Shown here in pieces: positions 4,131 through 64,000 of a stretch of 64,000 nucleotides of DNA (positions are counted from its first letter, which is position 1; every line of letters starts with the position of its first letter). The DNA comes from Lineus longissimus (lineage: Eukaryota; Nemertea; Pilidiophora; Heteronemertea; Lineidae). The position numbers were made by a program, and so were the translations under genes. The notes under the pieces are model-generated. The model was not told where the DNA came from. It worked only from the letters and a program-made list of their open reading frames with translations, and did no database searches. The stretch is taken from NCBI RefSeq assembly GCF_910592395.1, contig NC_088309.1, positions 17,054,599 to 17,118,598 of the forward strand, in the 5' to 3' direction.

Positions 4131-4143
4131 TTTCAAAAACAGT

Positions 4144-7860: not shown

Positions 7861-9654
7861 GTTGACAACGGGTTCCATATTTTATTCGTGATTCTAAAGA
7901 ATTTAGTTCGACAACAGGCCCGGCCGAAGGAGAAAGAAAAATGAATGTATTTAAAGGCCCCAGATGACTGTAAAAAGTCAATGAGAATCTAAGGTTGCAG
8001 TGAACTCAAATCATTTATGATTTTCAGACCAGAGCCATCTCTGTCAAATCATTATATTATATAAAAAACATTAGATCATATAAAAAAACGTGTATGATGT
8101 CATGTTGTCTCTTTAGAAGTATCCGCGTTCATGAGATATTAACAATATAATAAGATTTCAAAAGATTGCTGCCTTTTCGAATCGCAATGATTTTTTTAAA
8201 GTCAAGTCATGTTGACATATATAAGACATCCGTACGTCAAGTTTCAACTTCCTAGACTTACTGGTGAACAACGACGCCATTGGCGTAGCTGGCGGGCGAT
8301 GACTCACCACCACCACCACCACCATAAAAGTCACCAAAACACATGTTTTGGCCCGTGATTTTGACCGAAAATTTTCAATAAGTGTCAGTTCCCCCCATCC
8401 CCACCCCCCCCCCCCCCCCCCCCGACCAAAAAGCTACCTACGCCCCTGGACGGTGACGACAGATACCGGACAATACCATTTGAATCATTCGTTCCCCGAA
8501 ATTTTAACCTGGGACACCCCTACTCCTGATGTGGTGGTTATACGGTCACACACAAGCCTTCGCTCCACTACCGGTTAACCGCGCTAACTCCCAAACCACT
8601 GTGCGGAAGCGTGGACGTTATCGCGTTGATGTCCGATGTGGGAGTAACCAAATGGAGTGTTTATCTTACCCCGGGGTTGTGGTTTATCCCCAGAGCGAGA
8701 ATATAAGCCTCACTATAAATGTGGTCTCAGAAGACCTTCTCCAAGGCAGATATGATATTCAAGCATGACCGATTCGATCACCACACTCCTTTTACCCTGT
8801 TACTGCGCGGAGTGTGCTCAGAACACCATACCATCAGATACCGGATTCCCGGGGCTGGCCGGTTGAAAAAAAAGAGTATCACTGTCCACCGATTACACAA
8901 CTTAATGGATCACATCCGACAGTCCTGAAAACATCCATTATCCTGTGGACACGAAAAATGTACATTCTGTAAATCAATATTTTCAATAAATGTCAAACTG
9001 TTTTACGCGTCATCCGGGAAAAGATTTTACCATGGCGACAGAGATTCAATAAATCAGTATCAAAGTGCAGGATATGACAAAGTAAACGTAATAGTTTACT
9101 TGTTACCGTGCGCGCAAATTAATCATTCAGTTCATTATTTTGCTTCGGTGGTCAATCTCGCGCAGATGCCAGAGGACACATGCAACATATAGCTTTCGTT
9201 TTCTCCGCTTCACTACAGGCGCGTGGGACGAGCAAGACTGATTCCTTGTATCAACATTATTGATTAATACAACCTGCAATTAGGCATTTGTTTCGTTCAA
9301 TAATCATTCGATAATTCATTACCCGTGAACAAGACTTTTTTTCTGCCGATCAGGCCGGCCCAGATGTTGACAAAAAAGGAAATCAATCCCAGAGGAAGAT
9401 CTGGCCATTTTGTGTCGGATTTGCCAGACAGAATTTTGTAAAAAAATGCGGAGTATCCAGAAACGAGATTGACTTCACTTGACAAAATATGTTATGGATT
9501 TTACTAGGAATGTTATCCAAAGCAATAGCTCCGACCCCTGGCAACCAAACATGCCTGCTGTCGAGTAAGAAACTGAAAACAAGAGAGGTCGGTTTTCTCG
9601 TTTTTGCTGGATGATGAAGGACACATATCGTGACTTTGTAACAACCGGATAAAT
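7861..9654. other. Gene-free stretch upstream of the WBP1-like gene
   Basis: It contains a CAC repeat near 8311 and a C-tract at 8404-8423. An AATAAA lies at 8985-8990. Small open frames around 8529-8928 lack splice sites or recognisable domains. The 5' UTR and promoter of the gene starting at 9655 presumably lie here, but I see no defined promoter element. Confidence 0.4.
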
Positions 9655-22611: not shown

Positions 22612-22670
22612 CTAGATAAATTGGCTCTTACCAAGAATAATCCTGGCACGTACGAGTCTCTTGTTGCAGG
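22612..22670 (-). CDS. Large gene exon 41 (terminal): CNKRLVRARIILGKSQFI, stop
   Basis: The acceptor TTTTCCAGCCTTTGTAG precedes CC TGC AAC AAG. Reading on reaches TAG at 22612-22614. An alternative is that GGTAAGAG at 22631 acts as a donor (exon 22632-22670, 39 nt, also phase 1-1) and more exons follow. I favour the terminal reading because AATAAA lies close by and no further exon was found. Confidence 0.55.
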
Positions 22671-46600: not shown

Positions 46601-49600
46601 AAAAGAGAAAATCCATCATTATGAAATAGTTATGCTTAATTTTATTTCATTTCAGGTGATTTCATTGCGTTGAAGGAAACTTGCCCGTGTCTGTATTGTC
46701 GAAGTAAGCTTATATAATCGACCGAAACTTAAATTTTAATGTAAATTGCTTTCGACTTGTTCATTGAAGATGTGTTTGGCTAATTCGGTAAACCGTACTC
46801 GGCGTCATTATACTCCCAGAGTCTTTCAATACTAAGTACTTACAGCATCGATGACAGCAGTCTGAAGAAAGAATAGTATTTGCCATAAACAGAAAGAAGC
46901 CATTTATGACAAGTTCCCCATTGACCAAATCGTTGACCTAATCATGATTGCGATTTTTCATGATAAAGACCAAGCGGAAGCATGTGCTGCAGTGTACGCG
47001 GTATTTCTATCACCCTGGTACTCTCTTAAAATAAGGAGCTTTGAGGTTTTAAACACCTTTCAGGGTTTTCAGCCAACACAAATATGCACCCCTGGATTTG
47101 TTTTAGGGAAATGAATATGTTTTTGTGGGTTTTCACAAGCTAAAAACTTTCTCTGAAAAACCACTACGGCTGCATATATAAAAAATGTGTTGGCCGAAAA
47201 ATCCTTAAATGTTTTTCAAAACCTCAAAAACCCTTATTTTTAAGAATGCAGCCACTCTGAACACATTACCACAATATGCATGGAACCGATGAGTTACAAC
47301 TCCCTAGTTCACTGGCTGATCGTATTCATGCGGTAAATATCATTAGTTTGGAGATTATCTCATTTACATCTAAATGACTGGATAAAAATGTTGACCCATC
47401 TAACTCGATCTATTTCATACCAGCTCACACTACAAAAAACATCCGTTTTATCACAATTTATCGTTCCTTTAGACCGTTCACCCCCCCCCCCCCCCCCCCC
47501 CCAACCCTTACAAGCTTTTTCGGTTGAACACATCTGAGGAGGTATACTTACGGCAATGCTTCATTGCTTTCAGAAGGTCTGCAAAAATAGATTAGAGACA
47601 CGTCATTAAAATCGTCTGCACAGTTTGGGCACTACTTTAGCAGTACCGATATTTTACCTCCTGTCATTTGCTACTCATAACCTCTCGATCGTTCTTCTTT
47701 CGCAGTCTAAAAAAATGTCCTGAATTAACTCGATCGATCTTGATCGACATCGGTTTATCAAGAAAATTATCTCAGGCATTCGACTTGTTTACCTCGGGCG
47801 TTAGAGTAAGGAGGTTAAGATTTTCGATCCGAGAACGAAAACGAGGTGGTATTTTGACGATAGATACCGTATTGCCTGTTGTCAGAAATGAAATGAAACA
47901 GTGTGCTTATAATGCCTTGTGTGCCTAGAAACAATAATACAAAACAATCAGTTTGACTTGATGACGTCAACCAGAGTAGAAACCCACCTCGTTCTCGTTC
48001 TCGGATCAAAATCTTAACCTCTCTCATTATCTCGATTGCCCGAGATATTATCCCCATCGATCGAGGTCATAAGTGAATCGATCGAGATATTTCGAAATAA
48101 TAAGTTTATCGGTCGAGATATTTTGATACAGTCGAAAAAATCATCTGATGTCCTTTCCTTGGCACTGTAGAACACAAGGTGGCACTGTAGGAAGTGGATA
48201 GTTAAGCAGAATTATTTGATTTTATGTACATCACTTGACGTGAAGATAGTAATAAATTTGTGTGTTAACTCAGGAGACAGCAGAAATCAAACTTGTGGAA
48301 TACTGAAAGCTGTCACATAAAAAATCGTACTCTCGACTTTGGTTTTGCCTTCGATTATGAAAGTAAATAAAACACAGTCATATGGACACTAGATTGGAAA
48401 TCGAATTCGAGGGTGTCACCTGCACAGCGCTTAGATTTTCTTCCAACTCTGCTTCTTCCCGACTTTGGTCTCTTCTTCCGGGGCTTAAGGATAGTCCTGA
48501 TACCTGCGATTTAAAAAGGGTGTAAAAATAAGGCATCAATATGTTTGTTAATAAAAAACACAGCCTGCAAACAGTTCACTAAAAAACAAGATTTTAACTG
48601 AGAAAAAATGGAAAAACAAAGTAGCTTAATAAAGGTTCAAACTGTTGTGTGGCTTTTGCCTGGCAGGTGTCCCAAGTTACACCTGCCAATCATTTAAAAG
48701 TGTCATGGAGGACCTGAATCGTTTTCTGTTCCTTTTTGTCAGGTGAAGTCATAGTCCCATCAGTTGGTGCATGGAAGAAGATGCTTAGGGTAGTATGACA
48801 ATAGGACGGTGGGCGAATTGATCACTTAGTGTAATTTGCCAAGGTATGACTCTCAAACAACGATTTTAACATTTTGACTGGCATTTCTTTTATTCGGCAT
48901 CACTTGAACACCCATGATCATATCAAAATGGAATTTTCACACACTGTCGGAGAAATGTGGATTAAGAAATGCGTTAATTCTTATTGGGATAGGTTGGGAG
49001 GCTTTTGAGATACAGCGCTCTGAATTTTGGGGTAAGACTTTCTAATTGAGAGAATTGTTTTGATACTTAGACACAGCATAATTTGACACAACTTTTCAAA
49101 TATACCATAACTAAAATTATCTAGCAAAATTTAGAATAAAGTAAAACAAAATCACCAAACAATTCACCAAACCTCTTTGCCATAGGCAGGATAGATAACT
49201 TATTACATATAGTTACTGGTATCAACCCTTAAATTTCGGCGCGTTTTTTTAAACCACCCGATATAAACATTTGTTACAGAATTACTTACCTCTGGTGATA
49301 ATCTTTTTCAACAGTGCATATCTCCTTAACAGACGTCTCCTCGTACGACGACCCAATCTCCCGAACAGACGATTGATGTTACGCGCGATTCTCTTCTTCC
49401 GTCGAACTAACTTCTTCAGGGTCCGTGAAATCTTAGAGTTTGGTCGGAATGACCTAGTTTTGCTTCGCCTATTGACATATGTCTGTTTAGCAGTGGTGCG
49501 CTTGAACCTCCGAAGCTGCCGCAAGATCCTTCTGATAATCAGATCAACACGAATTTTCCGGCGGATGCGCCTTACCAGCCTCATCCTGTGCCTGGTGATG

Positions 49601-52600
49601 GCGTATCGGCTACGTCTCTTCCTCCTTCTCTGGACACGGGCCTTTCGAATCAGCCTTCTGGCCTTTCGTCTCAACTTGTTGTCAAAACGTCTGACAGATC
49701 GTGTTTTTACCAGTATCATCTTGATCTTACGGACGAATCGGACTCCGTACCTGTAATACCGTACCCTCCGTCTCATATTTTTCACCTTCTTGACTGCCTT
49801 GACGCGTTTCAAGGCTTTCTTAACGCGATGCAATATCAGTATCTCCCTCTTATGAAGCCGCTTGATGAATCGCAGTAGAGTGTCTCTGAGAGATAGTACG
49901 TTGCGTTTACTGTTACGACGTGTTGATTCGGCTATCTTCAATTTCTTTACAAGAGTTACTACCAAAATCTTTTCACGGCGCAAAAGCGCCAGCTTATTAA
50001 TCAACTTAGATCGATTTATGACAAATTTCCTGTCCATTGTTTTCATTAATGTCGATATTTCCTTGTTAATTATTTGAACCTGTCTCTGAAGGTCGTTCTG
50101 GACTTTCCCGAAGGATTTACACGAGTCAATAATCAACTTTAGATAATCGACATAGTGAATAACATCCATATAGAACTGAATCTCAAAGGTAAACCTTTCG
50201 ATCTCATTTAAATTTTTCCCTTTTTCCTCATTAACCTTTTTCTGGAGTTTTCTTACTTGTTTTCCAGAGTCAACTCGGACTTCCTTTAGGTACTGACCAG
50301 TGACTGTCCGAATGAGCACTTTTTCGTATGCAGAGACAGGTCGAGATCGTACATCATCAAGAATGTATTTGATTTTCAAGATTCTTGTTTTCCGCCTCTG
50401 GTATGAAAAAAGCCTTGCAACATAGTACGGACGTTTCTTCTTTGGAACTTTCTGGATTCGGCTTCTGATCTTTTTGATTCTTCGCCTACATTTACTGAGA
50501 AGCCGCTTCACAAATTGCCTCATAGAATAAATAGTCTTCCTTTTTAATATGACTCTTCGAATCCATTTCAATCTTCTCAATTCCAGCTGATATAAAGATT
50601 TCTGCCGAAGGTTATTCAACTTTTGAGCTGGAGATTTCTTTATCAATGTCTGAATCTTCTTTAGACCCCTGACAATTACTCGAACATTCTTCCGAATAAC
50701 CACAATAATCTTTCTCTTGATAGCAGAAAGTTTAGGCTTGCTTCCTTTTCTCTTTCTTGTCTTCACTCGTTGGTAAATGGTTGTAATTCGGCGAAGGATC
50801 ATACCAAGAACTCTGCTCACACGAGTCAGCCTGCTAATGCGCCTTTTCAGCTTTGGTTTATTCTTTTTAGTGGTTTTCCTAAGCTTCTTTTTCAAGTTCC
50901 GAGTATTTTCAATTGTCCTTTTAATAGTTTTCTTCACAACCATCCTCATACTGTGAACAGAACTGATCTTTACAAGTGTTGCTGAAACATATTTAACCTG
51001 TTTTCTAATATATGAAATCGTCTTGAGTTTTCTTCTTATCACCTGTAATCTCCTTTTCTTTCTTTTTGGTATTCTTCTTCGTCTCTTGTTCAGCAAAGTT
51101 ATCTTCTTTTGGTACCGTTTTAGGAATTTCTTGCAAAATCTTATAACACCACGCTCAACCAGTTTCAATGTATTCGATTTTGGCTTTGGTCTAGTCACTT
51201 TTGATTTCCACACTTTTGTCTTTTTCCCTTTTTTCTGTTTTCTTCTTGGCTTGTTTCTCTTCCTATAAATATGGATGACGCTGTGGTAAATAGTTTTGAT
51301 TATTTTGTTCACCTTACAATACCTCTTATACCTGCGCATTGTCACAGGATTCTTCTTCTTCGGGTTCTTTCTAAGTTGCATCTTTAATTCCTGTTTAATT
51401 TTGTGTATCTTACGTACAGTAATCGTGACATATTTTCTGATGCCACGTAGACTAGTTTTCTTTATTACAACTCGCCGAATGACTTTGACTTGCTTGATGA
51501 TTTTGGAGCATACTTTGATCCTACTCCGAAGTGGTTTCCTCTTTGGTTTCGTTGCCTTTTTTAGAATCTTGACCAGCTTTCGCTTTCTGCGAATATATTT
51601 CTTAATAATATTCTTCAAGATTTTCACCACTTTCCTTTTAGCCTTCTTCACTTTCTTTGGTCTTGAACCTCTTTTGGGTTTTTTCTTGTTTCTCCTTGGT
51701 CGCTTGTTTGGACGACGAGTGACACGTCTGATTTTGCTGACAATTTTCTTTACTAATTTTCTGCGAATATATTTCTTAATAATATCCTTCAAGATTTTCA
51801 CCACTTTCCTTTTTGTCTTCTTCACTTTCTTTGGCCTTAAAACTATCTTGGGTTTTTTCTTATTTCTCCTTGGTCGCTTGTTTGGACGACGAGTGACACG
51901 TCTGATTTTGCTGACAATTTTCTTTACTACTTTTCTCATCCTACGGATTATCCTACACTTGGTTTTCAGCTTTGGCCTCTTTCCCACTGGCAGTTTCTTG
52001 ATTTTCCTCTTTAGCCTCTTGTACTTCCTTGATGTCTTCCTTACAATGTGTTGTGTATAGTTCATAATTCTATGCACTCTAGTACTCTTGATTATTGTAT
52101 GCTCTATAATGACAATTTGCCAGATGACAGTGGTAAATATTTGGATCTTTTTACGTAGAATTTTCCTCTGCGATTTTTTTGCCTTTCTTAGAGTCATGAT
52201 CAATTTTTTCTTTCCCTCAACATACTTCCTAATAATTCTCTTCAGGAAATTTATAACTTTTCGTTTAAGCTTCTTCAATTTTTCTGGTCTCGAAACTCTC
52301 TTGGGTTTTTTCTTATTTCTCCTTGGTCGCTTGTTTGGACGACGAGTGACACGTCTGATTTTGCTGACAATTTTCTTTAATACTTTTCTCACCCTACGGA
52401 GTATCTTACACTTGGTTTTCAGCTTTGGTTTCTTTTGCTTTGGCGTTCTCTTGACTTTCCTCTTTAGCTTCTTGTACTGCTTACATGCCTTGCGTACGAT
52501 TTTCTTGACACATTTTCGGATGCGATGCGCACTAGTTTTCTTGATTACAACTCGCCGAATGACTTTGACCTGCTTGATGATTTTGGTGCATACTATGATC

Positions 52601-55600: not shown

Positions 55601-58600
55601 TTCTTTTTCTTTGGCGTTCTCTTGACTTTCCTCTTTAGCTTCTTGTACTGCTTACGTGCCTTGCGTACGATTTTCTTGACACATTTTCGGATGCGATGCA
55701 CACTAGTTTTCTTGATTACAACTCGCCGAATGACTTTCACTTGCTTGATGATTTTGGTGCATACTTTGATCCTTCTCCGAAGTGGTTTCCTCTTTCCTTT
55801 CTTTACTTTTCTTAGAACCTTGATCAGCGTTTTCTTTCTGCGAATATATTTCTTAATCATTTTCTTCAAGATTTTCGCCACTTTCTTTTTAGCCTTCTTC
55901 ACTTTCTTTGGTCTTGAAACTCTCTTGGGTTTTTTCTTATTTCTCCTTGGTCGCTTGTTTGGACGACGAGTGTCACGTCTGATTTTGCTGACAATTTTCT
56001 TTAATACTTTTCTCACCCTACGGAGTATCTTACACTTGGTTTTCAGCTTTGGTTTCTTTTGCTTTGGCGTTCTCTTGACTTTCCTCTTTAGCTTCTTGTA
56101 CTGCTTACGTGCCTTGCGTACGATTTTCTTGACACATTTTCGGATGCGATGCACACTAGTTTTCTTGATTACAACTCGCCGAATGACTTTGACTTGCTTG
56201 ATGATTTTGGTGCATACTTTGATCCTTCTCCGAAGTGGTTTCCTCTTTCCTTTTTTTATTTTTCTTAGAACCTTGATCAGCGTTTTCTTTCTGCGAATAT
56301 ATTTCTTAATCATTTTCTTCAAGATTTTCGCCACTTTCTTTTTAGCCTTCTTCACTTTCTTTGGTCTTGAAACTCTCTTGGGTTTTTTCTTATTTCTCCT
56401 TGGTCGCTTGTTTGGACGACGAGTGACACGTCTGATATTGCTGACAATTTTCTTTAATACTTTTCTCACCCTACGGAGTATCTTACACTTGGTTTTCAGC
56501 TTTGGTTTCTGTTGCTTTGGCGTTCTCTTGACTTTCCTCTTTAGCTTCTTGTACTGCTTACGTGCCTTGCGTACGATTTTCTTGACACATTTTCGGATGC
56601 GATGCACACTAGTTTTCTTGATTACAACTCGCCGAATGACTTTGACTTGCTTGATGATTTTGGTGCATACTATGATCCTTCTCCGAAGTGGTTTCCTCTT
56701 TCCTTTCTTTACTTTTCTTAGAACCTTGATCAGCGTTTTCTTTCTGCGAATATATTTCTTAATCATTTTCTTCAAGATTTTCGCCACTTTCTTTTTAGCC
56801 TTCTTCACTTTCTTTGGTCTTGAAACTCTCTTGGGTTTTTTCTTATTTCTCCTTGGTCGCTTGTTTGGACGACGAGTGACACGTCTGATTTTGCTGACAA
56901 TTTTCTTTAATACTTTTCTCACCCTACGGAGTATCTTACACTTGGTTTTCAGCTTTGGTTTCTTTTGCTTTGGCGTTCTCTTGACTTTCTTCTTTAGCTT
57001 CTTGTACTGCTTACGTGCCTTGCGTACGATTTTCTTGACACATTTTCGGATGCGATGCACACTAGTTTTCTTGATTACAACTTGCCGAATGACTTTGACT
57101 TGCTTGATGATTTTGGTGCATACTTTGATCCTTCTCCGAAGTGGTTTTCTCTTTCCTTTCTTTACTTTTCTTAGAACCTTGATCAGCGTTTTCTTTCTGC
57201 GAATATATTTCTTAATCATTTTCTTCAAGATTTTCGCCACTTTCTTTTTAGCCTTCTTCACTTTCTTTGGTCTTGAAACTCTCTTGGGTTTTTTCTTATT
57301 TCTCCTTGGTCGCTTGTTTGGACGACGAGTGACACGTCTGATTTTGCTGACAATTTCCTTTAATACTTTTCTCACCCTATGGAATATCCTACACTTGGTT
57401 TTCAGCTTTGGTTTCTTTTTCTTTGGCGTTCTCTTGACTTTCCTCTTTAGCTTCTTGTACTGCTTACGTGCCTTGCGTACGATTTTCTTGACACATTTTC
57501 GGATGCGATGCACACTAGTTTTCTTGATTACAACTCGCCGAATGACTTTGACTTGCTTGATGATTTTGGTGCATACTTTGATCCTTCTCCGAAGTGGTTT
57601 TCTCTTTCCTTTCTTTACTTTTCTTAGAACCTTGATCAGCGTTTTCTTTCTGCGAATATATTTCTTAATCATTTTCTTCAAGATTTTCGCCACTTTCTTT
57701 TTAGCCTTCTTCACTTTCTTTGGTCTTGAAACTCTCTTGGGTTTTTTCTTATTTCTCCTTGGTCGCTTGTTTGGACGACGAGTGACACGTCTGATTTTGC
57801 TGACAATTTCCTTTAATACTTTTCTCACCCTATGGAATATCCTACACTTGGTTTTCAGCTTTGGTTTCTTTTTCTTTGGCGTTCTCTTGACTTTCCTCTT
57901 TAGCTTCTTGTACTGCTTACGTGCCTTGCGTACGATTTTCTTGACACATTTTCGGATGCGATGCACACTAGTTTTCTTGATTACAACTCGCCGAATGACT
58001 TTGACTTGCTTGATGATTTTGGTGCATACTTTGATCCTTCTCCGAAGTGGTTTCCTCTTTCCTTTCTTTACTTTTCTTAGAACCTTGATCAGCGTTTTCT
58101 TTCTGCGAATATATTTCTTAATCATTTTCTTCAAGATTTTTGCCACTTTCTTTTTAGCCTTCTTCACTTTCTTTGGTCTTGAAACTCTCTTGGGTTTTTT
58201 CTTATTTCTCCTTGGTCGCTTGTTTGGACGACGAGTGACACGTCTGATTTTGCTGACAATTTTCTTTAATACTTTTCTCACCCTACGGAGTATCTTACAC
58301 TTGGTTTTCAGCTTTGGTTTCTGTTGCTTTGGCGTTCTCTTGACTTTCCTCTTTAGCTTCTTGTACTGCTTACGTGCCTTGCGTACGATTTTCTTGACAC
58401 ATTTTCGGATGCGATGCACACTAGTTTTCTTGATTACAACTCGCCGAATGACTTTGACTTGCTTGATGATTTTGGTGCATACTATGATCCTTCTCCGAAG
58501 TGGTTTCCTCTTTCCTTTCTTTACTTTTCTTAGAACCTTGATCAGCGTTTTCTTTCTGCGAATATATTTCTTAATCATTTTCTTCAAGATTTTCGCCACT

Positions 58601-61600
58601 TTCTTTTTAGCCTTCTTCACTTTCTTTGGTCTTGAAACTCTCTTGGGTTTTTTCTTATTTCTCCTTGGTCGCTTGTTTGGACGACGAGTGACACGTCTGA
58701 TTTTGCTGACAATTTTCTTTAATACTTTTCTCACCCTACGGAGTATCTTACACTTGGTTTTCAGCTTTGGTTTCTTTTGCTTTGGCGTTCTCTTGACTTT
58801 CCTCTTTAGCTTCTTGTACTGCTTACGTGCCTTGCGTACGATTTTCTTGACACATTTTCGGATGCGATGCACACTAGTTTTCTTGATTACAACTTGCCGA
58901 ATGACTTTGACTTGCTTGATGATTTTGGTGCATACTTTGATCCTTCTCCGAAGTGGTTTTCTCTTTCCTTTCTTTACTTTTCTTAGAACCTTGATCAGCG
59001 TTTTCTTTCTGCGAATATATTTCTTAATCATTTTCTTCAAGATTTTCGCCACTTTCTTTTTAGCCTTCTTCACTTTCTTTGGTCTTGAAACTCTCTTGGG
59101 TTTTTTCTTATTTCTCCTTGGTCGCTTGTTTGGACGACGAGTGACACGTCTGATTTTGCTGACAATGTCCTTTAATACTTTTCTCACCCTATGGAATATC
59201 CTACACTTGGTTTTCAGCTTTGGTTTCTTTTTCTTTGGCGTTCTCTTGACTTTCCTCTTTAGCTTCTTGTACTGCTTACGTGCCTTGCGTACGATTTTCT
59301 TGACACATTTTCGGATGCGATGCACACTAGTTTTCTTGATTGCAACTCGCCGAATGACTTTGACTTGCTTGATGATTTTGGTGCATACTTTGATCCTTCT
59401 CCGAAGTGGTTTCCTCTTTCCTTTCTTTACTTTTCTTAGAACCTTGATCAGCGTTTTCTTTCTGCGAATATATTTCTTAATCATTTTCTTCAAGATTTTT
59501 GCCACTTTCTTTTTAGCCTTCTTCACTTTCTTTGGTCTTGAAACTCTCTTGGGTTTTTTCTTATTTCTCCTTGGTCGCTTGTTTGGACGACGAGTGACAC
59601 GTCTGATTTTGCTGACAATTTTCTTTAATACTTTTCTCACCCTACGGAGTATCTTACACTTGGTTTTCAGCTTTGGTTTCTTTTGCTTTGGCGTTCTCTT
59701 GACTTTCCTCTTTAGCTTCTTGTACTGCTTACGTGCCTTGCGTACGATTTTCTTGACACATTTTCGGATGCGATGCACACTAGTTTTCTTGATTACAACT
59801 CGCCGAATGACTTTGACTTGCTTGATGATTTTGGTGCATACTTTGATCCTTCTCCGAAGTGGTTTCCTCTTTCCTTTTTTTACTTTTCTTAGAACCTTGA
59901 TCAGCGTTTTCTTTCTGCGAATATATTTCTTAATCATTTTCTTCAAGATTTTCGCCACTTTCTTTTTAGCCTTCTTCACTTTCTTTGGTCTTGAAACTCT
60001 CTTGGGTTTTTTCTTATTTCTCCTTGGTCGCTTGTTTGGACGACGAGTGACACGTCTGATATTGCTGACAATTTTCTTTAATACTTTTCTCACCCTACGG
60101 AGTATCTTACACTTGGTTTTCAGCTTTGGTTTCTGTTGCTTTGGCGTTCTCTTGACTTTCCTCTTTAGCTTCTTGTACTGCTTACGTGCCTTGCGTACGA
60201 TTTTCTTGACACATTTTCGGATGCGATGCACACTAGTTTTCTTGATTACAACTCGCCGAATGACTTTGACTTGCTTGATGATTTTGGTGCATACTATGAT
60301 CCTTCTCCGAAGTGGTTTCCTCTTTCCTTTCTTTACTTTTCTTAGAACCTTGATCAGCGTTTTCTTTCTGCGAATATATTTCTTAATCATTTTCTTCAAG
60401 ATTTTCGCCACTTTCTTTTTAGCCTTCTTCACTTTCTTTGGTCTTGAAACTCTCTTGGGTTTTTTCTTATTTCTCCTTGGTCGCTTGTTTGGACGACGAG
60501 TGACACGTCTGATTTTGCTGACAATTTTCTTTAATACTTTTCTCACCCTACGGAGTATCTTACACTTGGTTTTCAGCTTTGGTTTCTTTTGCTTTGGCGT
60601 TCTCTTGACTTTCCTCTTTAGCTTCTTGTACTGCTTACGTGCCTTGCGTACGATTTTCTTGACACATTTTCGGATGCGATGCACACTAGTTTTCTTGATT
60701 ACAACTTGCCGAATGACTTTGACTTGCTTGATGATTTTGGTGCATACTTTGATCCTTCTCCGAAGTGGTTTTCTCTTTCCTTTCTTTACTTTTCTTAGAA
60801 CCTTGATCAGCGTTTTCTTTCTGCGAATATATTTCTTAATCATTTTCTTCAAGATTTTCGCCACTTTCTTTTTAGCCTTCTTCACTTTCTTTGGTCTTGA
60901 AACTCTCTTGGGTTTTTTCTTATTTCTCCTTGGTCGCTTGTTTGGACGACGAGTGACACGTCTGATTTTGCTGACAATTTCCTTTAATACTTTTCTCACC
61001 CTATGGAATATCCTACACTTGGTTTTCAGCTTTGGTTTCTTTTTCTTTGGCGTTCTCTTGACTTTCCTCTTTAGCTTCTTGTACTGCTTACGTGCCTTGC
61101 GTACGATTTTCTTGACACATTTTCGGATGCGATGCACACTAGTTTTCTTGATTACAACTCGCCGAATGACTTTGACTTGCTTGATGATTTTGGTGCATAC
61201 TTTGATCCTTCTCCGAAGTGGTTTCCTCTTTCCTTTCTTTACTTTTCTTAGAACCTTGATCAGCGTTTTCTTTCTGCGAATATATTTCTTAATCATTTTC
61301 TTCAAGATTTTTGCCACTTTCTTTTTAGCCTTCTTCACTTTCTTTGGTCTTGAAACTCTCTTGGGTTTTTTCTTATTTCTCCTTGGTCGCTTGTTTGGAC
61401 GACGAGTGACACGTCTGATTTTGCTGACAATTTTCTTTAATACTTTTCTCACCCTACGGAGTATCTTACACTTGGTTTTCAACTTTGGTTTCTTTTGCTT
61501 TGGCGTTCTCTTGACTTTCCTCTTTAGCTTCTTGTACTGCTTACGTGCCTTGCGTACGATTTTCTTGACACATTTTCGGATGCGATGCACACTAGTTTTC

Positions 61601-64000
61601 TTGATTACAACTCGCCGAATGACTTTGACTTGCTTGATGATTTTGGTGCATACTTTGATCCTTCTCCGAAGTGGTTTCCTCTTTCCTTTTTTTACTTTTC
61701 TTAGAACCTTGATCAGCGTTTTCTTTCTGCGAATATATTTCTTAATCATTTTCTTCAAGATTTTCGCCACTTTCTTTTTAGCCTTCTTCACTTTCTTTGG
61801 TCTTGAAACTCTCTTGGGTTTTTTCTTATTTCTCCTTGGTCGCTTGTTTGGACGACGAGTGACACGTCTGATATTGCTGACAATTTTCTTTAATACTTTT
61901 CTCACCCTACGGAGTATCTTACACTTGGTTTTCAGCTTTGGTTTCTGTTGCTTTGGCGTTCTCTTGACTTTCCTCTTTAGCTTCTTGTACTGCTTAAGTG
62001 CCTTGCGTACGATTTTCTTGACACATTTTCGGATGCGATGCACACTAGTTTTCTTGATTACAACTCGCCGAATGACTTTGACTTGCTTGATGATTTTGGT
62101 GCATACTATGATCCTTCTCCGAAGTGGTTTCCTCTTTCCTTTCTTTACTTTTCTTAGAACCTTGATCAGCGTTTTCTTTCTGCGAATATATTTCTTAATC
62201 ATTTTCTTCAAGATTTTCGCCACTTTCTTTTTAGCCTTCTTCACTTTCTTTGGTCTTGAAACTCTCTTGGGTTTTTTCTTATTTCTCCTTGGTCGCTTGT
62301 TTGGACGACGAGTGACACGTCTGATTTTGCTGACAATTTTCTTTAATACTTTTCTCACCCTACGGAGTATCTTACACTTGGTTTTCAGCTTTGGTTTCTT
62401 TTGCTTTGGCGTTCTCTTGACTTTCCTCTTTAGCTTCTTGTACTGCTTACATGCCTTGCGTACGATTTTCTTGACACATTTTCGGATGCGATGCACACTA
62501 GTTTTCTTGATTACAACTCGCCGAATGACTTTGACTTGCTTGATGATTTTGGTGCATACTTTGATCCTTCTCCGAAGTGGTTTCCTCTTTCCTTTTTTTA
62601 CTTTTCTTAGAACCTTGATCAGCGTTTTCTTTCTGCGAATATATTTCTTAATCATTTTCTTCAAGATTTTCGCCACTTTCTTTTTAGCCTTCTTCACTTT
62701 CTTTGGTCTTGAAACTCTCTTGGGTTTTTTCTTGTTTCTCCTTGGTCGCTTGTTTGGACGACGAGTGACACGTCTGATATTGCTGACAATTTTCTTTAAT
62801 ACTTTTCTCACCCTACGGAGTATCTTACACTTGGTTTTCAGCTTTGGTTTCTTTTGCTTTGGCGTTCTCTTGACTTTCCTCTTTAGCTTCTTGTACTGCT
62901 TACGTGCCTTGCGTACGATTTTCTTGACACATTTTCGGATGCGATGCACACTAGTTTTCTTGATTACAACTTGCCGAATGACTTTGACTTGCTTGATGAT
63001 TTTGGTGCATACTTTGATCCTTCGCCGAAGTGGTTTTCTCTTTCCTTTCTTTACTTTTCTTAGAACCTTGATCAGCGTTTTCTTTCTGCGAATATATTTC
63101 TTAATCATTTTCTTCAAGATTTTCGCCACTTTCTTTTTAGCCTTCTTCACTTTCTTTGGTCTTGAAACTCTCTTGGGTTTTTTCTTATTTCTCCTTGGTC
63201 GCTTGTTTGGACGACGAGTGACACGTCTGATTTTGCTGACAATTTTCTTTACTACTTTTCTCACCCTACGGATTATCTTACACTTGGTTTTCAGCTTTGG
63301 CCTCTTTCTCTCCGGCAGTTTCTTGATTTTCCTCTTAAGCCTCTTGTACTTCCTTGATGTCTTCCTTACAATGTGTTGTGTATAGTTCATAATTCTATGC
63401 ACTCTAGTACTCTTGATTATTGTATGCTCTATAATGACAACTTGCCAGATGACAGTGGTGAATATTTTGATCTTTTTACGTAGAATTTTCCTCTGCGTTT
63501 TTTTGGCCTTTTTTAGAGTCTTGATCAATTTTTTCTTTCTCTGAACATACTTCTTAATAATTCTCTTCAGGCAATTTACCACTTTTCGTTTAACCTTCTT
63601 CACTTTCTTTGGTCTTGAAACTCTCTTGGGTTTTTTCTTATTTCTCCTTGGTCGCTTGTTTGGACGACGAGTGACACGTCTGATTTTGCTGACAATTTTC
63701 TTTAATACTTTTCTCACCCTACGGAGTATCTTACACTTGGTTTTCAGCTTTGGTTTCTTTTGCTTTGGCGTTCTCTTGACTTTCCTCTTTAGCTTCTTGT
63801 ACTGCTTACGTGCCTTGCGTACGACTTTCTTGACACATTTTCGGATGCGATGCACACTAGTTTTCTTGATTACAAGTCGCCGAATGACTTTGACTTGCTT
63901 GATGATTTTTGTGCATACTTTGATCCTTCTCCGAAGTGGTTTCCTCTTTCCTTTTTTTACTTTTCTTAGAACCTTGATCAGCGTTTTCTTTCTGCGAATA
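22612..64000 (-). CDS. Giant polycationic repeat protein with a 40-exon symmetric tail (5' end outside window)
   Basis: No family match is recognised. Exon 1 of this window is at least 14.7 kb long and open to the right edge. Forty small exons follow, of 12 to 84 nt. Every internal one is a multiple of three, starts with two bases completing a codon and ends with one base of the next (phase 1-1). Splicing all of them gives no stop and ~694 residues after ~4,900 from the large exon. Regions in order: 151-residue Lys/Arg repeats; diverged repeats; a basic helical region; a Lys/Arg and Cys/His microexon stretch; 26 two-Cys modules; a Cys-poor Lys-rich tail; stop. The N-terminus is not visible, so whether there is a signal peptide is unknown. 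Cys modules argue for an extracellular disulfide-bonded protein, while the Lys/Arg content also suits nucleic-acid binding. Exons were called from splice consensus, phase and module similarity, not transcripts. Confidence 0.75.
22858..22989. mobile_element. Foldback element, copy 1 of a two-copy family
   Basis: AACAGCGACTT, CACGGATCCTT and a palindromic ACGTATTACGGAT arm are mirrored by ATCCGTATAAGGATTCG. The end ATCTCAACCTCCCTA is shared with the copy at 37753-37880. It lies in the last intron of the large gene. Confidence 0.7.
24053..24103 (-). CDS. Large gene exon 40: PYRKIISTIRRTRKRV
   Basis: 51 nt; acceptor CTTCATTATTCAAG, donor GTTG|GTAGGT. An acceptor ten bases further in (CTACAG) would break the phase, so the upstream one is chosen. 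Lys/Arg-rich with no Cys. Confidence 0.6.
24266..24480. mobile_element. Foldback element with 27-bp inverted ends
   Basis: CACGGTGGGTAAAGGTATTG at the left is mirrored by CCGATACCCTTATCCACCGTG at the right with a few mismatches. Another copy of the GTGGGTAAAGGTAT motif stands just outside at about 24232. Confidence 0.65.
24604..24624 (-). CDS. Large gene exon 39: 21-nt microexon (IKYVVKE)
   Basis: A very strong acceptor (TTGTTTTTTTCGTTTCAG) and donor GAAG|GTGAGC enclose 21 nt. The first codon is completed by the A of exon 38. Confidence 0.65.
25184..25237 (-). CDS. Large gene exon 38: SSYSSTKVKVDKLLKTK
   Basis: 54 nt; acceptor TTTTTGTTTCAAG, donor AAGA|GTAAGT. A CAG 13 nt further in would give a 41-nt exon and break the frame. 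Ser/Lys-rich. Confidence 0.65.
25903..25944 (-). CDS. Large gene exon 37: GLSASAGALKKSI
   Basis: 42 nt; acceptor CATTTCCAACAG, donor ATCC|GTAAGT. It is Ala/Ser/Gly-rich, unlike the modules upstream. Confidence 0.65.
26600..26659 (-). CDS. Large gene exon 36: RSINGIQKSMRILKKAVTN
   Basis: 60 nt; acceptor TGTCATTTCAG, donor AATG|GTAAGC. Lys-rich with alternating hydrophobics, probably helical; no Cys. Confidence 0.7.
26764..26893. repeat. 65-bp perfect tandem duplication in an intron
   Basis: ATAGACAGGTATGCGAAGTT through ACTCATAAAGAATC occurs twice, starting at 26764 and 26829, with no difference seen. It is therefore recent. Confidence 0.9.
27189..27245 (-). CDS. Large gene exon 35: MTKAKMKIVCRKLRLEKI
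   Basis: 57 nt; acceptor TTTCTCTCCAG, donor ATCG|GTAAGC. It has one lone Cys. Confidence 0.7.
27480..27539 (-). CDS. Large gene exon 34: IGAKTVTKSTIKTKGKSIT
   Basis: 60 nt; acceptor CCTTTTTCAG, donor ACAA|GTAAGT. Thr/Lys-rich, no Cys. The pattern K-x-T-x-x-K is repeated within it. Confidence 0.7.
28322..28384 (-). CDS. Large gene exon 33: first Cys-free exon of the tail
   Basis: 63 nt; acceptor ACCTTTTTCAG, donor GAAA|GTAAGT. It reads VGKMDIEEQKVANNKKASLE after the split Ala, with an unusual acidic patch (DIEE). Confidence 0.7.
28543..29552. mobile_element. DNA transposon copy 1 with inverted 15-bp-array termini and 8-bp target duplication
   Basis: GTTGATAA flanks both ends (28535-28542 and 29553-29560). 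The element starts GGTTTATGCCTGTTTCGCC and ends with the inverse of GGTGTATTCCTGTTTCGCC. About 200 bp at each end are tandem CCTGTTTCGCCTATT units, inverted relative to each other. The centre (CCCACGGGGAACCTTAGGG, GATGTTAACGATGTGATGAC, GAAAGCGGGGACAGTCCGGG) is almost identical to copy 2 at 39739-40562. No transposase is present. Superfamilies with 8-bp duplications include hAT, P and Merlin; the assignment is open. Confidence 0.85.
29700..29765. repeat. Clustered TGACCT direct repeats
   Basis: ATGACCTTGCGATTTGACCTTTTTGACCTTGACTTTTGACCT holds five TGACCT cores within about 45 bp (written here only to mark the cores; the stretch spans 29715-29757). Similar strings occur in the repeat at 4380-5000, so a dispersed repeat is the likeliest source. 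Confidence 0.5.
29916..29957 (-). CDS. Large gene exon 32: two-Cys module CGPNEKMIDGNC
   Basis: 42 nt; acceptor GTTTTCACTTTAG, donor ATGG|GTAGGT. It is the last of the 26 modules, a short type, and the only near-neutral one. Confidence 0.7.
30177..30239 (-). CDS. Large gene exon 31: two-Cys module CPRGQMKVSAPDGTIYC
   Basis: 63 nt; acceptor TTATTTTTCCAG, donor ACTG|GTGAGT. Long type, followed by VPT; less basic than its neighbours. Confidence 0.75.
31151..31219 (-). CDS. Large gene exon 30: two-Cys module CRKGSTMNKDRRGRLYC
   Basis: 69 nt, among the longest of the set; acceptor TATTTTACAG, donor AAGA|GTAAGT. The module is led by LYK and followed by KKK. Confidence 0.75.
31521..31562 (-). CDS. 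Large gene exon 29: two-Cys module CRWGYRVKGSKC
   Basis: 42 nt; acceptor TTATTATTTCAG, donor GTTC|GTACGT. Short type; Trp replaces the usual Pro-x before Gly-Tyr. Confidence 0.75.
31856..31915 (-). CDS. Large gene exon 28: two-Cys module CRRGYKRVKRKGSYLC
   Basis: 60 nt; acceptor CCTTTTTTGCAG, donor ATTG|GTAAGG. Long type, ending VQI. Confidence 0.75.
32279..32593. mobile_element. Truncated second copy of the 363-bp element, inverted
   Basis: GGCCATGTAGAATTAGCGG at the left end and the interior (TTAATGAATTCATTAAGTTT, GCGCAGCGCTGTATTAC, CCTTTCGTCTTCAGAGTTCA) match 11570-11932 in reverse. The copy stops at CCAGGTGATTGAAGCC, about 45 bp short of the other terminus and 18 bp from exon 27's donor. 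Confidence 0.8.
32612..32677 (-). CDS. Large gene exon 27: two-Cys module CPRGFNMFKKKKTRYC
   Basis: 66 nt; acceptor TTTGTTTTCCAAG, donor GTCC|GTAAGT. Long type, led by WYG. The truncated mobile element at 32279-32593 lies only 18 bp beyond its donor. Confidence 0.75.
33251..33298 (-). CDS. Large gene exon 26: two-Cys module CACGYRRRPNSMKC
   Basis: 48 nt; acceptor TTCTTTTTCAG, donor GTTT|GTAAGT. It has an extra Cys (C-A-C), the only three-Cys module. Confidence 0.75.
33626..33688 (-). CDS. Large gene exon 25: two-Cys module CPNRMATVKVGKRYHC
   Basis: 63 nt; acceptor GCTTTATTTTTCAG, donor TCAA|GTAAGT. Long type led by FRK; the Gly-Tyr pair is lost. Confidence 0.75.
33980..34024 (-). CDS. Large gene exon 24: two-Cys module CPLGYRFNSKRGC
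   Basis: 45 nt; acceptor CATCGTTTCAG, donor CTGT|GTAAGT. Short type. The string CCTGTGTAAGTATAC containing this donor is duplicated about 48 nt downstream in the intron (see findings). Confidence 0.75.
34053..34418. repeat. 182-bp tandem duplication next to exon 23
   Basis: GATAGGTATCCCC starts at 34083 and 34265, followed in both by TTTCCACACAATTTGCTATG, GAGTTTAAGAGTCAACATTT and TTTTCCTCCAATAGGAGACA. The second copy ends 8 bp from the donor of exon 23. Confidence 0.85.
34426..34488 (-). CDS. Large gene exon 23: two-Cys module CPRFYSMRKSRKGRPYC
   Basis: 63 nt; acceptor TTGATTGTTTCAG, donor GTCA|GTGAGT. Long type followed by VRV. Confidence 0.75.
34824..34883 (-). CDS. Large gene exon 22: two-Cys module CYYPFVRKKMKGRWLC
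   Basis: 60 nt; acceptor CAATTGTTTACAG, donor TTCA|GTAAGT. Long type; CYYPF replaces CPxGY. Confidence 0.75.
35415..35483 (-). CDS. Large gene exon 21: two-Cys module CPRLYYRVGKGNNKQC
   Basis: 69 nt; acceptor TTTAAACAACAG, donor CCAA|GTAAGT. Long type led by YRG, followed by IKMP. Confidence 0.7.
35791..35869. repeat. Diverged ~78-bp repeat, copy A
   Basis: CACAACGCCTGTGAGAGTGA and CCGTTGGATTTAT match the segment at 37293-37370 at about 80 percent by eye. Read on the minus strand, copy B is open but copy A has an in-frame TAG, so this looks like a decayed fragment of something once coding. Confidence 0.6.
35997..36050 (-). CDS. Large gene exon 20: two-Cys module CPVGYWPVAKRGKKRC
   Basis: 54 nt; acceptor TTTGTTCCAG, donor GCCT|GTGAGT. 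Intermediate length. Confidence 0.75.
37109..37153 (-). CDS. Large gene exon 19: two-Cys module CPNGRLLNKQNKC
   Basis: 45 nt; acceptor GTTCTTCGTTTTCAG, donor GTCA|GTAAGT. Short type. The next intron (36051-37108) holds no exon or repeat I can recognise. Confidence 0.75.
37293..37370. repeat. Diverged ~78-bp repeat, copy B
   Basis: Partner of 35791-35869. On the minus strand it reads HRFVTFTGVVISYEINPTTT with no stop. It lies directly before the retrotransposon fragment at 37398. Confidence 0.6.
37398..37700 (+). pseudogene. Decayed non-LTR retrotransposon reverse transcriptase fragment
   Basis: Across frames one reads KEGNLQKCNNYRIIRM, then ILKRLQLEANAILSEDQARL, then HNFVDFKKCFDLAER. This order resembles the RT core of LINE-type elements: the N-Y-R-x-I region, the E-Q-A-G-F/R region and motif A (FVDFKKAFD-like). 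At least two frameshifts and a stop break it, and the YADD box is not seen. Confidence 0.65.
37753..37880. mobile_element. Foldback element, copy 2 of the family at 22858
   Basis: AACAGCGACTTCTCACGGATCC and its inverse ATCCGTGATAAGTC enclose TATACGTATACGGAT / ATCCGTATGCGTATACG arms. It shares ATCTCAACCTCCCTA at the end with copy 1. Confidence 0.7.
38023..38088 (-). CDS. Large gene exon 18: two-Cys module CPHGKTPLRVWKRVYC
   Basis: 66 nt; acceptor GTTGTTTACAG, donor AAAA|GTGAGT. Long type led by FVK, followed by VKK. Confidence 0.75.
38450..38491 (-). CDS. Large gene exon 17: two-Cys module CPVGHKVVKGRC
   Basis: 42 nt; acceptor CATTAATTTTTTCAG, donor AAAT|GTAAGT. Short type. Confidence 0.75.
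39228..39290 (-). CDS. Large gene exon 16: two-Cys module CKVGYRKYTTKQGKILC
   Basis: 63 nt; acceptor TTTCTTGACTTCCAG, donor ATAT|GTAAGT. Long type followed by VKI. Confidence 0.75.
39548..39610. repeat. Short palindrome, 26-bp arms
   Basis: AATATCGAAGTCGTGTTCCT followed by ATTCGT is mirrored by ACGAATAGGAATACGACTTC followed by AATATT. It is the inner hairpin of the older foldback element. Confidence 0.8.
39739..40562. mobile_element. DNA transposon copy 2 (15-bp-array termini, 8-bp target duplication)
   Basis: ATTCGCTC flanks both ends (39731-39738 and 40563-40570). Termini are GGTTTATGCCTGTTTCGCC and the inverse of GGTGTATTCCTGTTTCGCC, identical to copy 1. The interior matches copy 1 closely, but this copy has fewer array units and a different segment at about 40166-40365. 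Confidence 0.85.
40736..40801 (-). CDS. Large gene exon 15: two-Cys module CPRGYSRKKGRKNSYC
   Basis: 66 nt; acceptor TCTTTTTTTCCAG, donor AAGA|GTAAGT. Long type led by FYK, followed by IKK. Confidence 0.78.
41258..41302 (-). CDS. Large gene exon 14: two-Cys module CARGYKLDKMGNC
   Basis: 45 nt; acceptor CCTTTTTGTGTTTTAG, donor GCTT|GTAAGT. Short type. Confidence 0.75.
42066..42131 (-). CDS. Large gene exon 13: two-Cys module CKLGYTKLITKKGPVC
   Basis: 66 nt; acceptor CAATTTCTTTCCCAG, donor AAAG|GTAAAT. Long type led by AKK, followed by VRK. Confidence 0.75.
42421..42462 (-). CDS. Large gene exon 12: two-Cys module CPKGYKRVKNKC
   Basis: 42 nt; acceptor GTTGATTCATTTTAG, donor GTGG|GTGAGT. The cleanest short-type module; I use it as the reference for the motif. 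Confidence 0.8.
43013..43066 (-). CDS. Large gene exon 11: two-Cys module CPKGFFRVKGKGTC
   Basis: 54 nt; acceptor CACTTATTTGTTTGCAG, donor ATAT|GTAAGT. Followed by IKI. Confidence 0.78.
43128..43171. repeat. Poly-C and (CCA)n simple repeat
   Basis: Fifteen C followed by about nine ACC/CCA triplets in an intron. Other C-tracts lie at 43621-43632 and 47481-47502. Confidence 0.9.
43479..43541 (-). CDS. Large gene exon 10: two-Cys module CPRGYKIQIRMKKVFC
   Basis: 63 nt; acceptor ACTTTCATCCATTTCAG, donor AAAC|GTACGT. Long type led by VS, followed by VKK. Confidence 0.78.
43878..43922 (-). CDS. Large gene exon 9: two-Cys module CQLGYKRYGPNC
   Basis: 45 nt; acceptor AATGTATATCTTCAG, donor CGAG|GTACGT. 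Short type followed by RR. Confidence 0.75.
44236..44292 (-). CDS. Large gene exon 8: two-Cys module CKRPYKRYFYKGKWYC
   Basis: 57 nt; acceptor TGAAATTATTTTTCAG, donor CGAC|GTAAGT. Rich in Tyr and Trp as well as Lys/Arg, unlike the others. Confidence 0.78.
44504..44566 (-). CDS. Large gene exon 7: first two-Cys module, CPPGYYLTKSRGKNRC
   Basis: 63 nt; acceptor CTCTGCTTTTCAG, donor AAAC|GTAAGT. Led by KHS and followed by VK. Confidence 0.78.
44750..45586. mobile_element. 837-bp element with ~90-bp CG-rich inverted termini
   Basis: The left terminus GCGGCTGTTATAAAACGCGG, then the palindromic ATTCCGCGGAAATCCGCGG, CGCGCGTACCTGGTTC and CCGTCAGATGTAGTGGTAGT are mirrored at the right end. TTCAAG outside the left end and TTCAAAG outside the right may be an imperfect target duplication. 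No transposase is evident. It fills most of the intron between exons 6 and 7. Confidence 0.75.
45945..45959 (-). CDS. Large gene exon 6: 15-nt microexon (RCCKK)
   Basis: Acceptor TTTTTCTCTTTTATATACCCAG, donor AAAA|GTAAGT. Arg is completed by the C of exon 5. Confidence 0.65.
46584..46595 (-). CDS. Large gene exon 5: 12-nt microexon (CFNN)
   Basis: The smallest exon: GTTTCAACAATC between acceptor TTTTCTCTTTTTTTAG and donor GTAAGT. Cys is completed by the T of exon 4. Confidence 0.65.
46844..46861 (-). CDS. Large gene exon 4: 18-nt microexon (HCCHRC)
   Basis: Acceptor ACTATTCTTTCTTCAG, donor ATGCT|GTAAGT. Every residue but one is Cys or His, so metal binding is conceivable. Confidence 0.68.
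47020..47262. mobile_element. Foldback element, ~80-bp arms
   Basis: TTAAAATAAGGAGCTTTGAG, GTTTTCAGCCAACACA and ATATGCA are mirrored by TGCATATATA, TGTGTTGGCCGAAAA and CTCAAAAACCCTTATTTTTA. It is in the intron between exons 3 and 4. Confidence 0.7.
47552..47578 (-). CDS. Large gene exon 3: 27-nt microexon (DLLKAMKHC)
   Basis: Acceptor TAATCTATTTTTGCAG, donor TGCC|GTAAGT. Asp is completed by the G of exon 2. Confidence 0.68.
47722..48110. mobile_element. Foldback element, ~120-bp arms rich in TCGATC
   Basis: CTCGGGCGTTAGAGTAAGG, AGGTTAAGATTTTCGATCCG and AGAACGAAAACGAGGTGG are mirrored by CCACCTCGTTCTCGTTCTCG, GATCAAAATCTTAACCTCTC and GATTGCCCGAG. Outer parts carry several TCGATCGA variants. 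Confidence 0.7.
48420..48503 (-). CDS. Large gene exon 2: Lys/Arg-rich linker ending in Cys
   Basis: 84 nt; acceptor TTTTTAAATCGCAG, donor GCAG|GTGACA (the weakest donor of the set). It reads GIRTILKPRKKRPKSGRS, then RVGRKSKRCA. It continues the basic character of the large exon and introduces the Cys region. Confidence 0.7.
48504..49289. other. Intron between the giant exon and exon 2
   Basis: 786 bp without recognisable repeat or exon. Confidence 0.6.
49290..64000 (-). CDS. Giant repeat-coding exon of the large gene (5' partial)
   Basis: A single frame is open from the right window edge to donor ACCAGAG|GTAAGT at 49290, about 4,903 residues; its true start is outside. From 64000 to about 51453 it consists of near-identical 151-residue units (for example VHRIRKCVKKIVRKARKQYK at the unit start). 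Prolines break each unit into predicted amphipathic helical stretches around a very basic linker (NKRPRRNKKKPKR). Units at about 50520-51452 are strongly diverged. From about 50400 to 49290 the sequence is no longer repetitive: it has the first acidic patches (NEEKGKNLNEIERF), a coiled-coil-like stretch and a final Arg-rich part (RRTRRRLLRRYALLKK). Lys/Arg total near half of all residues, so net charge in the window exceeds +2,000 (estimate). No known domain is recognised. Confidence 0.85.
51453..64000 (-). repeat. Coding tandem array, 453-bp (151-residue) unit, about 27 units
   Basis: The unit-start string ATGCACACTAG (plus strand) recurs every 453 bp, for example at 52978 and 53431. I counted 79 Lys/Arg, 3 Cys and 0 Asp/Glu in a typical unit. 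Subtypes are told apart by KQKK, KQQK and KKKK near residue 31. The KQQK codon change (CTGTTGC on the plus strand) lies at 56509, 58321, 60133 and 61945, exactly 1812 bp (four units) apart. Confidence 0.9.

Follow-up and report, generated by a model that had tools for sequence, protein, structure and literature searches.

Balbiani ring proteins are built from charged, cysteine-bearing repeats in which the positions of the cysteines are conserved in every repeat. Their genes in Chironomus come in two layouts: BR1, BR2.1, BR2.2 and BR6 are ~40 kb long, with four introns and a repetitive centre of ~35 kb, and the related gene BR3 is 11 kb long with 38 introns (PMC4192438). Among cement proteins, Pc1, Pc2, Pc4 and Pc5 of the sandcastle worm are polybasic, their charge being balanced by sulfated or phosphorylated polyanions, and CP52k and CP100k of barnacles have a high content of Arg, Lys and aliphatic residues; a long helical unit like the one reported here has no mention in the text examined (PMC11277488). 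Schistosome micro-exon genes encode secreted or exposed proteins from many short symmetric exons, those of 6–36 bp making up about 80% of the coding region (PMC5825161).

The locus described here lies on the minus strand of a window of 64,000 nt from Lineus longissimus (contig NC_088309.1, positions 17,054,599 to 17,118,598). By analogy, Balbiani ring genes appear to be the closest layout found in print, and polybasic or cationic cement proteins the closest chemistry. As in Balbiani ring genes, a very large tandem-repeat core sits in few exons, here at least 14.7 kb built on 453-bp units in one exon, and the locus would unite both Balbiani ring layouts by combining a giant repeat exon with a cysteine-bearing part that has many introns. 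The proteins differ, as compared by description, in that the unit here is 151 residues long, about half basic, almost acid-free and predicted to form four helices. The likeness to the cement proteins of the sandcastle worm and barnacles, which are cationic and secreted, is likewise one of description. Many short symmetric exons are a trait in common with schistosome micro-exon genes, but the small exons here are longer (21–84 nt) and encode 674 of 5,577 residues, so that most of the coding region lies outside them. A literature search over titles and the beginnings of abstracts, with most subscription journals outside its coverage, returned no protein of this kind.

The existence of a giant, basic, tandem-repeat coding frame in one very long exon, as proposed in the initial annotation, is confirmed. 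Open reading frame analysis of the whole window showed a minus-strand frame (63999..49282) of 4,905 open codons plus a stop (49284-49282), still open at the window edge. Lys (1,510) and Arg (873) together account for 48.6% of its 4,906 letters (30.8% and 17.8%, respectively), compared with 40 acidic residues (Asp plus Glu); Ala makes up 1.9%, Ser 2.5%, Pro 4.2% and Val, Ile and Leu together 26.7%. Lys is spelled with both codons (AAA 0.47 in the array) and Arg with all six, so basicity looks to be kept at the amino-acid level. Directly before the frame stop lies a consensus donor in phase 1, CACCAGAG/GTAAGT, with 49290 as the last exon base, and the stop is therefore probably not the end of the protein. 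Of the gene extent originally given, 49290..64000, the exon end at 49290 stands, whereas the model continues to 22153 through micro-exons that had been overlooked (Table 1).

Table 1. Positions within the window of the giant exon, its repeat units and the modelled downstream exons.
Feature	Position	Strand	Remarks
Giant exon	49290..64000	-	4,903 codons + 1 base, counted from 63999; phase 1 end at AG/GTAAGT; 5′ end beyond window
Tandem array, 151-residue (453 bp) units	51811..64000	-	26 complete + partial one at window edge; partly four-unit periodicity, 20-unit duplication
Truncated unit, 58 residues	51637..51810	-	alignment coordinates; 174-bp tandem duplication
Diverged unit C1, 54% identical to main unit	51169..51636	-	z 22.1 vs shuffles
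Diverged unit C2, 35% identical to main unit	50722..51168	-	z 11.8 vs shuffles
Diverged unit C3, 23% identical to main unit	50329..50721	-	z 6.9 vs shuffles
C4, helical and more acidic; doubtful as an ancient unit	49879..50328	-	marginal z 3.0
C5, Arg-rich segment, doubtful ancient unit	49291..49878	-	marginal z 4.1
Small exon, K/R-rich, phase 1-1, 84 nt	48420..48503	-	splice-flanked scan
2-Cys micro-exon 1 HSCPPGYYLTKSRGKNRCVK	44504..44566	-	splice-flanked scan, joined model
2-Cys micro-exon 2 CKRPYKRYFYKGKWYCRR	44236..44292	-	splice-flanked scan, joined model
2-Cys micro-exon 3 CQLGYKRYGPNCRR	43878..43922	-	splice-flanked scan, joined model
2-Cys micro-exon 4 SCPRGYKIQIRMKKVFCVKK	43479..43541	-	splice-flanked scan, joined model
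2-Cys micro-exon 5 CPKGFFRVKGKGTCIKI	43013..43066	-	splice-flanked scan, joined model
2-Cys micro-exon 6 CPKGYKRVKNKCV	42421..42462	-	splice-flanked scan, joined model
2-Cys micro-exon 7 KKCKLGYTKLITKKGPVCVRK	42066..42131	-	splice-flanked scan, joined model
2-Cys micro-exon 8 CARGYKLDKMGNCA	41258..41302	-	splice-flanked scan, joined model
2-Cys micro-exon 9 YKCPRGYSRKKGRKNSYCIKK	40736..40801	-	splice-flanked scan, joined model
2-Cys micro-exon 10 CKVGYRKYTTKQGKILCVKI	39228..39290	-	splice-flanked scan, joined model
2-Cys micro-exon 11 CPVGHKVVKGRCK	38450..38491	-	splice-flanked scan, joined model
2-Cys micro-exon 12 VKCPHGKTPLRVWKRVYCVKK	38023..38088	-	splice-flanked scan, joined model
2-Cys micro-exon 13 CPNGRLLNKQNKCV	37109..37153	-	splice-flanked scan, joined model
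2-Cys micro-exon 14 CPVGYWPVAKRGKKRCA	35997..36050	-	splice-flanked scan, joined model
2-Cys micro-exon 15 RGCPRLYYRVGKGNNKQCIKMP	35415..35483	-	splice-flanked scan, joined model
2-Cys micro-exon 16 CYYPFVRKKMKGRWLCVKF	34824..34883	-	weak acceptor, -1.9
2-Cys micro-exon 17 CPRFYSMRKSRKGRPYCVRV	34426..34488	-	splice-flanked scan, joined model
2-Cys micro-exon 18 CPLGYRFNSKRGCL	33980..34024	-	splice-flanked scan, joined model
2-Cys micro-exon 19 RKCPNRMATVKVGKRYHCVS	33626..33688	-	splice-flanked scan, joined model
Three-Cys micro-exon 20 CACGYRRRPNSMKCV	33251..33298	-	splice-flanked scan, joined model
2-Cys micro-exon 21 YGCPRGFNMFKKKKTRYCVKV	32612..32677	-	splice-flanked scan, joined model
2-Cys micro-exon 22 CRRGYKRVKRKGSYLCVQI	31856..31915	-	splice-flanked scan, joined model
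2-Cys micro-exon 23 YKCRKGSTMNKDRRGRLYCKKK	31151..31219	-	splice-flanked scan, joined model
2-Cys micro-exon 24 CPRGQMKVSAPDGTIYCVPT	30177..30239	-	splice-flanked scan, joined model
2-Cys micro-exon 25 CGPNEKMIDGNCM	29916..29957	-	splice-flanked scan, joined model
Small Lys-rich phase 1-1 exon, 63 nt	28322..28384	-	splice-flanked scan
Small Lys-rich phase 1-1 exon, 60 nt	27480..27539	-	splice-flanked scan
Small Lys-rich phase 1-1 exon, 57 nt	27189..27245	-	splice-flanked scan
Small phase 1-1 exon, 60 nt	26600..26659	-	splice-flanked scan
Small Lys-rich phase 1-1 exon, 54 nt	25184..25237	-	splice-flanked scan
Tentative 21-nt exon	24604..24624	-	acceptor 7.9, donor 6.8
Tentative 51-nt Arg-rich exon	24053..24103	-	picked by eye; acceptor -0.2, donor 2.7
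Small Lys-rich phase 1-1 exon, 69 nt	23307..23375	-	splice-flanked scan
Tentative 48-nt exon	22632..22679	-	splice-flanked scan
Tentative terminal exon NSFKKKMSKGH-stop	22153..22190	-	splice-flanked scan, joined model

Tandem Repeats Finder (TRF), run on the window, reported a period of 453, 27.0 copies and 94% matches over 51758-64000. When the 26 complete units were excised in the 151-residue register, 23 proved near-identical and three (u0, u20 and u25) formed a second subtype, with 99, 99 and 111 differences from the main type, respectively, over the 453 bases. Judged by nearest-neighbour distances between units, the middle of the array is ordered partly in fours; there is also a 20-unit duplication, in which units 0, 1 and 2 differ from units 20, 21 and 22 by 2, 0 and 1 bases. 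That near-identical units lie 4 and 20 apart suggests recent unequal exchange; repeat number seems to change in this way among recent copies, with the core pattern and the charge held over longer time. The 151-residue array recognised earlier holds only as far as about 51811, where tandem order ends, the last ~840 codons consisting of a truncated unit and increasingly diverged units. The ‘regularly placed’ cysteines are likewise a feature of the main unit: one of its three Cys columns is common to u0 and u25 and one to C1, and the remaining 12/15 cells (u0, u25, C1–C3) hold F, Y, I, V or L. The unit cysteines therefore look like core residues rather than a cross-linking pattern, unlike the per-repeat conservation of Balbiani ring proteins.

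The 840 codons 3′ of the array (49291-51810) contained 0 stops in the sense frame and 19–77 in each of the other five, where a first-order Markov null gave a mean of 51.1 and a minimum of 27 (2,000 runs). The array itself shows strong strand asymmetry, and the antisense frame, nearly open across it (5 stops), has at least 19 stops in 49291-51810. An open frame across every unit had been the argument for a maintained gene, and for the 23 recent copies that argument is weak: their 37 distinct variants comprised 12 synonymous, 25 non-synonymous and 0 stop changes, against a neutral expectation of 10.6, 24.4 and 1.5 (P = 0.36 for synonymous changes, 0.18 for stops), and no purifying selection was detectable among them from variant classes, at low power. 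A dN/dS near 1 between units, which the initial annotation had listed as evidence against such a gene, is thus what the recent copies display, with that same low power. Between distant units, dN/dS did fall below 1 (main unit versus u0, 0.51; u25, 0.62; C1, 0.71). Against C2, pS was 0.81 and pN 0.44, compared with 0.46–0.73 and 0.46–0.55 in the other five frames; against C3 the values were 0.77 and 0.54, compared with 0.57–0.73 and 0.54–0.59. Only the comparison with C2 sets the sense frame clearly apart in this way; those with u0 and C3 do so more weakly, and for u25 and C1 the sense frame resembles the others. Moreover, dS is saturated in the oldest units, and protein conservation is clearest for C2. 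Our reading is that the array is recent and drifting, with the constraint signal in the older units. It is distant-unit dN/dS, the open C-terminus behind the array and the splice structure, rather than the open frames of recent copies, that argue for a maintained gene.

Structure prediction for the unit returned four helices (mean pLDDT 87.5, pTM 0.70) from an alignment of 8 rows, all of them from this one gene and five of them close or subtype copies; the C2 row begins with M where the gene has L (TTG read as start). The 151-residue unit is thereby predicted to comprise four amphipathic helices and a basic linker, modelled as a four-helix bead of ~124 residues (net +61) followed by 27 linker residues (+17). 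Lys-rich sequence is easily predicted to be helical; against shuffles of the same residues, helix amphipathicity gave p = 0.0015, 0.0425, <0.0005 (0/2,000) and 0.004, compared with 0.66 for the linker. Of the 113 helical positions in the main unit, 45 are hydrophobic, with Lys or Arg at 56 of the remaining 68, and the hydrophobic helix positions are still hydrophobic at 34/45 in C2 and 37/44 in C3, despite identities of 35% and 23%. The comparison with protamines and H1 tails made at the outset misses this predicted folding. Fold searches with the unit returned generic helical hairpins; abalone lysin and histones were absent among the 50 matches listed in either search, which does not speak against them. 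Since structural matches spanning >100 residues had rmsd values of 4.1 or more, how the two hairpins pack is uncertain. A single-sequence model of C4–C5 was poor (pLDDT 56), C4 being modelled as helical at low confidence.

Past the giant exon, on the same strand, the gene model contains 35 small phase 1-1 exons (21–84 nt) and a terminal exon with its stop at 22153-22155. The giant exon ends in phase with these exons, and the joined model, which has no internal stop, encodes in its seen part 5,577 residues (4,903 of them in the giant exon), with 46.4% Lys plus Arg, 54 acidic residues and a computed charge of about +2,535. The micro-exons are modelled, from genomic sequence, as belonging to the giant-exon gene. 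Splice-flanked exon scans required phase 1 and a length divisible by three; both features are therefore partly present by construction, and phase 1-1 counts as an independent finding only through the phase and strand controls. A stricter splice score yielded only three micro-exons, and thresholds were then relaxed. Under uniform criteria, 21/29 exon candidates, some overlapping, were K/R-rich (≥25%) in minus phase 1, compared with 1/16 and 3/19 in the other minus phases and 1/8, 2/8 and 0/6 on the plus strand. From 49288 to 20001, the paired-Cys pattern, taken from the analysed sequence itself and applied identically to the controls, had 25 occurrences in minus phase 1, compared with 0 and 1 in the other minus phases and 1, 0 and 0 on the plus strand; across 40 randomised sequences the mean was 0.2 and the maximum 2. 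Scanning for the motif with no splice requirement recovered 18 paired-Cys stretches on the minus strand, 14 of which are in the model, against 2 on the plus strand. Some candidates that were weaker or overlapped others were dropped by hand (for example 42981-42940, 31948-31904, 47578-47552, 46861-46844 and 21575-21510), and the exons left of 25184 are tentative, except 23375-23307.

Each of 25 micro-exons encodes one short loop between cysteines, of which there are two in 24 cases and three in one, with 10–15 residues between the outer pair. A C-P start was seen in 15 modules, C-P-x-G in 12, C-x-x-G-Y in 12 and the full C-P-x-G-Y in 6; Lys or Arg accounts for 138/448 residues. The module resembles the last loop of EGF-like domains (C-P-x-G-Y), although such domains have six cysteines each and the modules here are Lys-rich, encoded one per exon; no Pfam EGF match was found in the 593-residue tail. 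Arrays of phase 1-1 exons with paired cysteines are typical of extracellular metazoan proteins; the splicing itself speaks for a eukaryote, and the style of the exons for an animal.

For the collections covered, searches for relatives agreed with the original view that the protein belongs to no recognised family. No Pfam family lay above its curated cut-offs in 49282-52500, 55000-57000, 49879-51168, one unit or a 593-residue version of the tail, or in eleven other open-reading-frame readings of the window. Matches below cut-off, such as those to LBD_receptor (E 0.008, array) and IP_trans (E 0.0068, 31595-31933), were treated as chance. Against a set of 5.8 billion proteins, no match was obtained with giant-exon residues 3780-4905 at E 0.001 (2,298 candidates), with the spliced tail at E 1 (621-residue version, 1,811 candidates) or with 49291-51636 at E 1 (best 7,991 candidates). 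The PDB, searched by sequence, returned no match at E 1 or E 10, Rfam (at gathering scores) and tRNA searches returned none, and the 47 viral and 301 prokaryote contig stretches that matched the pattern of one unit included none that was confirmed. As the metazoan share of these collections is uncertain, none of them being dedicated to metazoans, the missing relatives say little.

Because paired cysteines in small phase-1 exons accompany basic helical beads, a secreted polyelectrolyte pairing with polyanions fits best. There is, in our estimation, about an even chance that the locus is a metazoan gene for a giant extracellular polycation, a chain of helical beads with cysteine loops that binds polyanions. 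The product of its repeat exon would be a chain in which 26 or more complete beads follow in tandem, together with older ones (C1–C3), each with four helices bearing hydrophobic faces, Lys and Arg on the outside and then a basic linker, and the chain would continue into 25 two-cysteine loops, one per micro-exon, and a Lys-rich C-terminus. So supercharged a chain could bind and condense polyanions (sulfated or phosphorylated polysaccharides and proteins), with the cysteine loops cross-linking or anchoring it, in a complex-coacervate glue, an egg or tube coat, or the packing of secretory granules. Most likely the protein acts as an extracellular polyelectrolyte, structural, adhesive or packaging; secretion, disulfides and polyanion binding, like partner, tissue and material role, are what we infer for it, and any signal peptide would be encoded beyond the window edge. 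It is possible, though rather doubtful, that folded, supercharged four-helix beads (+61 on 124 residues) fused to an array of Lys-rich two-cysteine loops represent an undescribed class of natural polymer, in which folding may need a polyanion partner; polyanion contact would then be the trigger for assembly.

Counting against an intact extracellular polymer, furin-type proteases on the normal secretory route could cut the 44 R-x-K/R-R sites of the model, 41 of which are in the giant exon. Those same sites would suit a host-defence polyprotein from which basic-site proteases release the cationic amphipathic helices as membrane-active peptides, with the micro-exons supplying hairpin-like two-cysteine peptides, their loops resembling beta-hairpin peptides, but such a product seems quite unlikely given helices predicted to pack together, conserved hydrophobic positions and no Pfam family above cut-off in the pieces scanned. 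A giant nuclear protein packing DNA or RNA, its basic beads neutralising nucleic acid in the manner of a sperm nuclear basic protein or H1, is also unlikely. Protamine-like proteins occupy a similar range of Lys plus Arg, and this extreme content, with the scarcity of acidic residues, is the feature in common; H1 tails, however, are rich in Ala, Pro and Ser and protamines in Arg, unlike the low Ala and Ser and high Val, Ile and Leu seen here. The amphipathic helices are moreover predicted to pack, no Pfam match above cut-off to linker histones, with their winged-helix domain, occurred in the pieces scanned (5′ exons lying beyond the window), and the paired-Cys micro-exon array better suits an extracellular protein.

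The same paired-Cys modules point to an oxidising compartment and, with no Pfam repeat family above cut-off in the pieces scanned, make an intracellular giant protein of the cytoskeleton improbable, even though long helical repeats and basic charge, both present here, occur in microtubule-binding proteins and C4 is more acidic and tentatively helical. The least probable of these alternatives, and a very improbable one, is a neutral satellite open by chance, or a decaying gene. Near-neutral variants in the 23 recent copies (12/25/0 versus 10.6/24.4/1.5), the strand asymmetry of the array and its nearly open antisense frame would all be in keeping with it, yet 840 open codons lie behind the array, old units keep their hydrophobic positions, and an in-phase donor is followed by in-phase small exons on the same strand. 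Returning to the extracellular polycation, the protein would, if expressed, combine extreme natural charge with a predicted fold. Nature would here have tested the limit of surface charge that a fold tolerates, and the protein would be a genetically encoded candidate polycation for use in wet adhesives or in packing polyanions. The locus would also illustrate repeat turnover within one coding exon, with drift among recent copies and a core preserved in old units, and a gene layout, a giant exon and then a run of 21–84 nt exons, that is easily missed by gene finders.

Several other elements were detected in the window. Two copies of a dispersed element of ~1 kb (28547-29540 and 39743-40558) lie in introns of the gene model; their ends consist of a 15-bp minisatellite in inverted arrays (TATTCCTGTTTCGCC / GAATAGGCGAAACAG) and two inner stretches are 96–97% identical. 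Another dispersed element is represented by an inverted pair of about 335 bp (11612-11946 and 32265-32594, 91% identical). Two open stretches on the plus strand (15694-16407 and 8508-8768), one Pro-rich and one giving the impression of an extracellular protein, had no Pfam match and are possibly exons of a neighbouring gene. Complex tandem repeats with periods of 62–64, 127 and 191 bp occupy 5857-7853, and a 301-bp unit is present at 4128-5010 in about three head-to-tail copies, about 87% alike.
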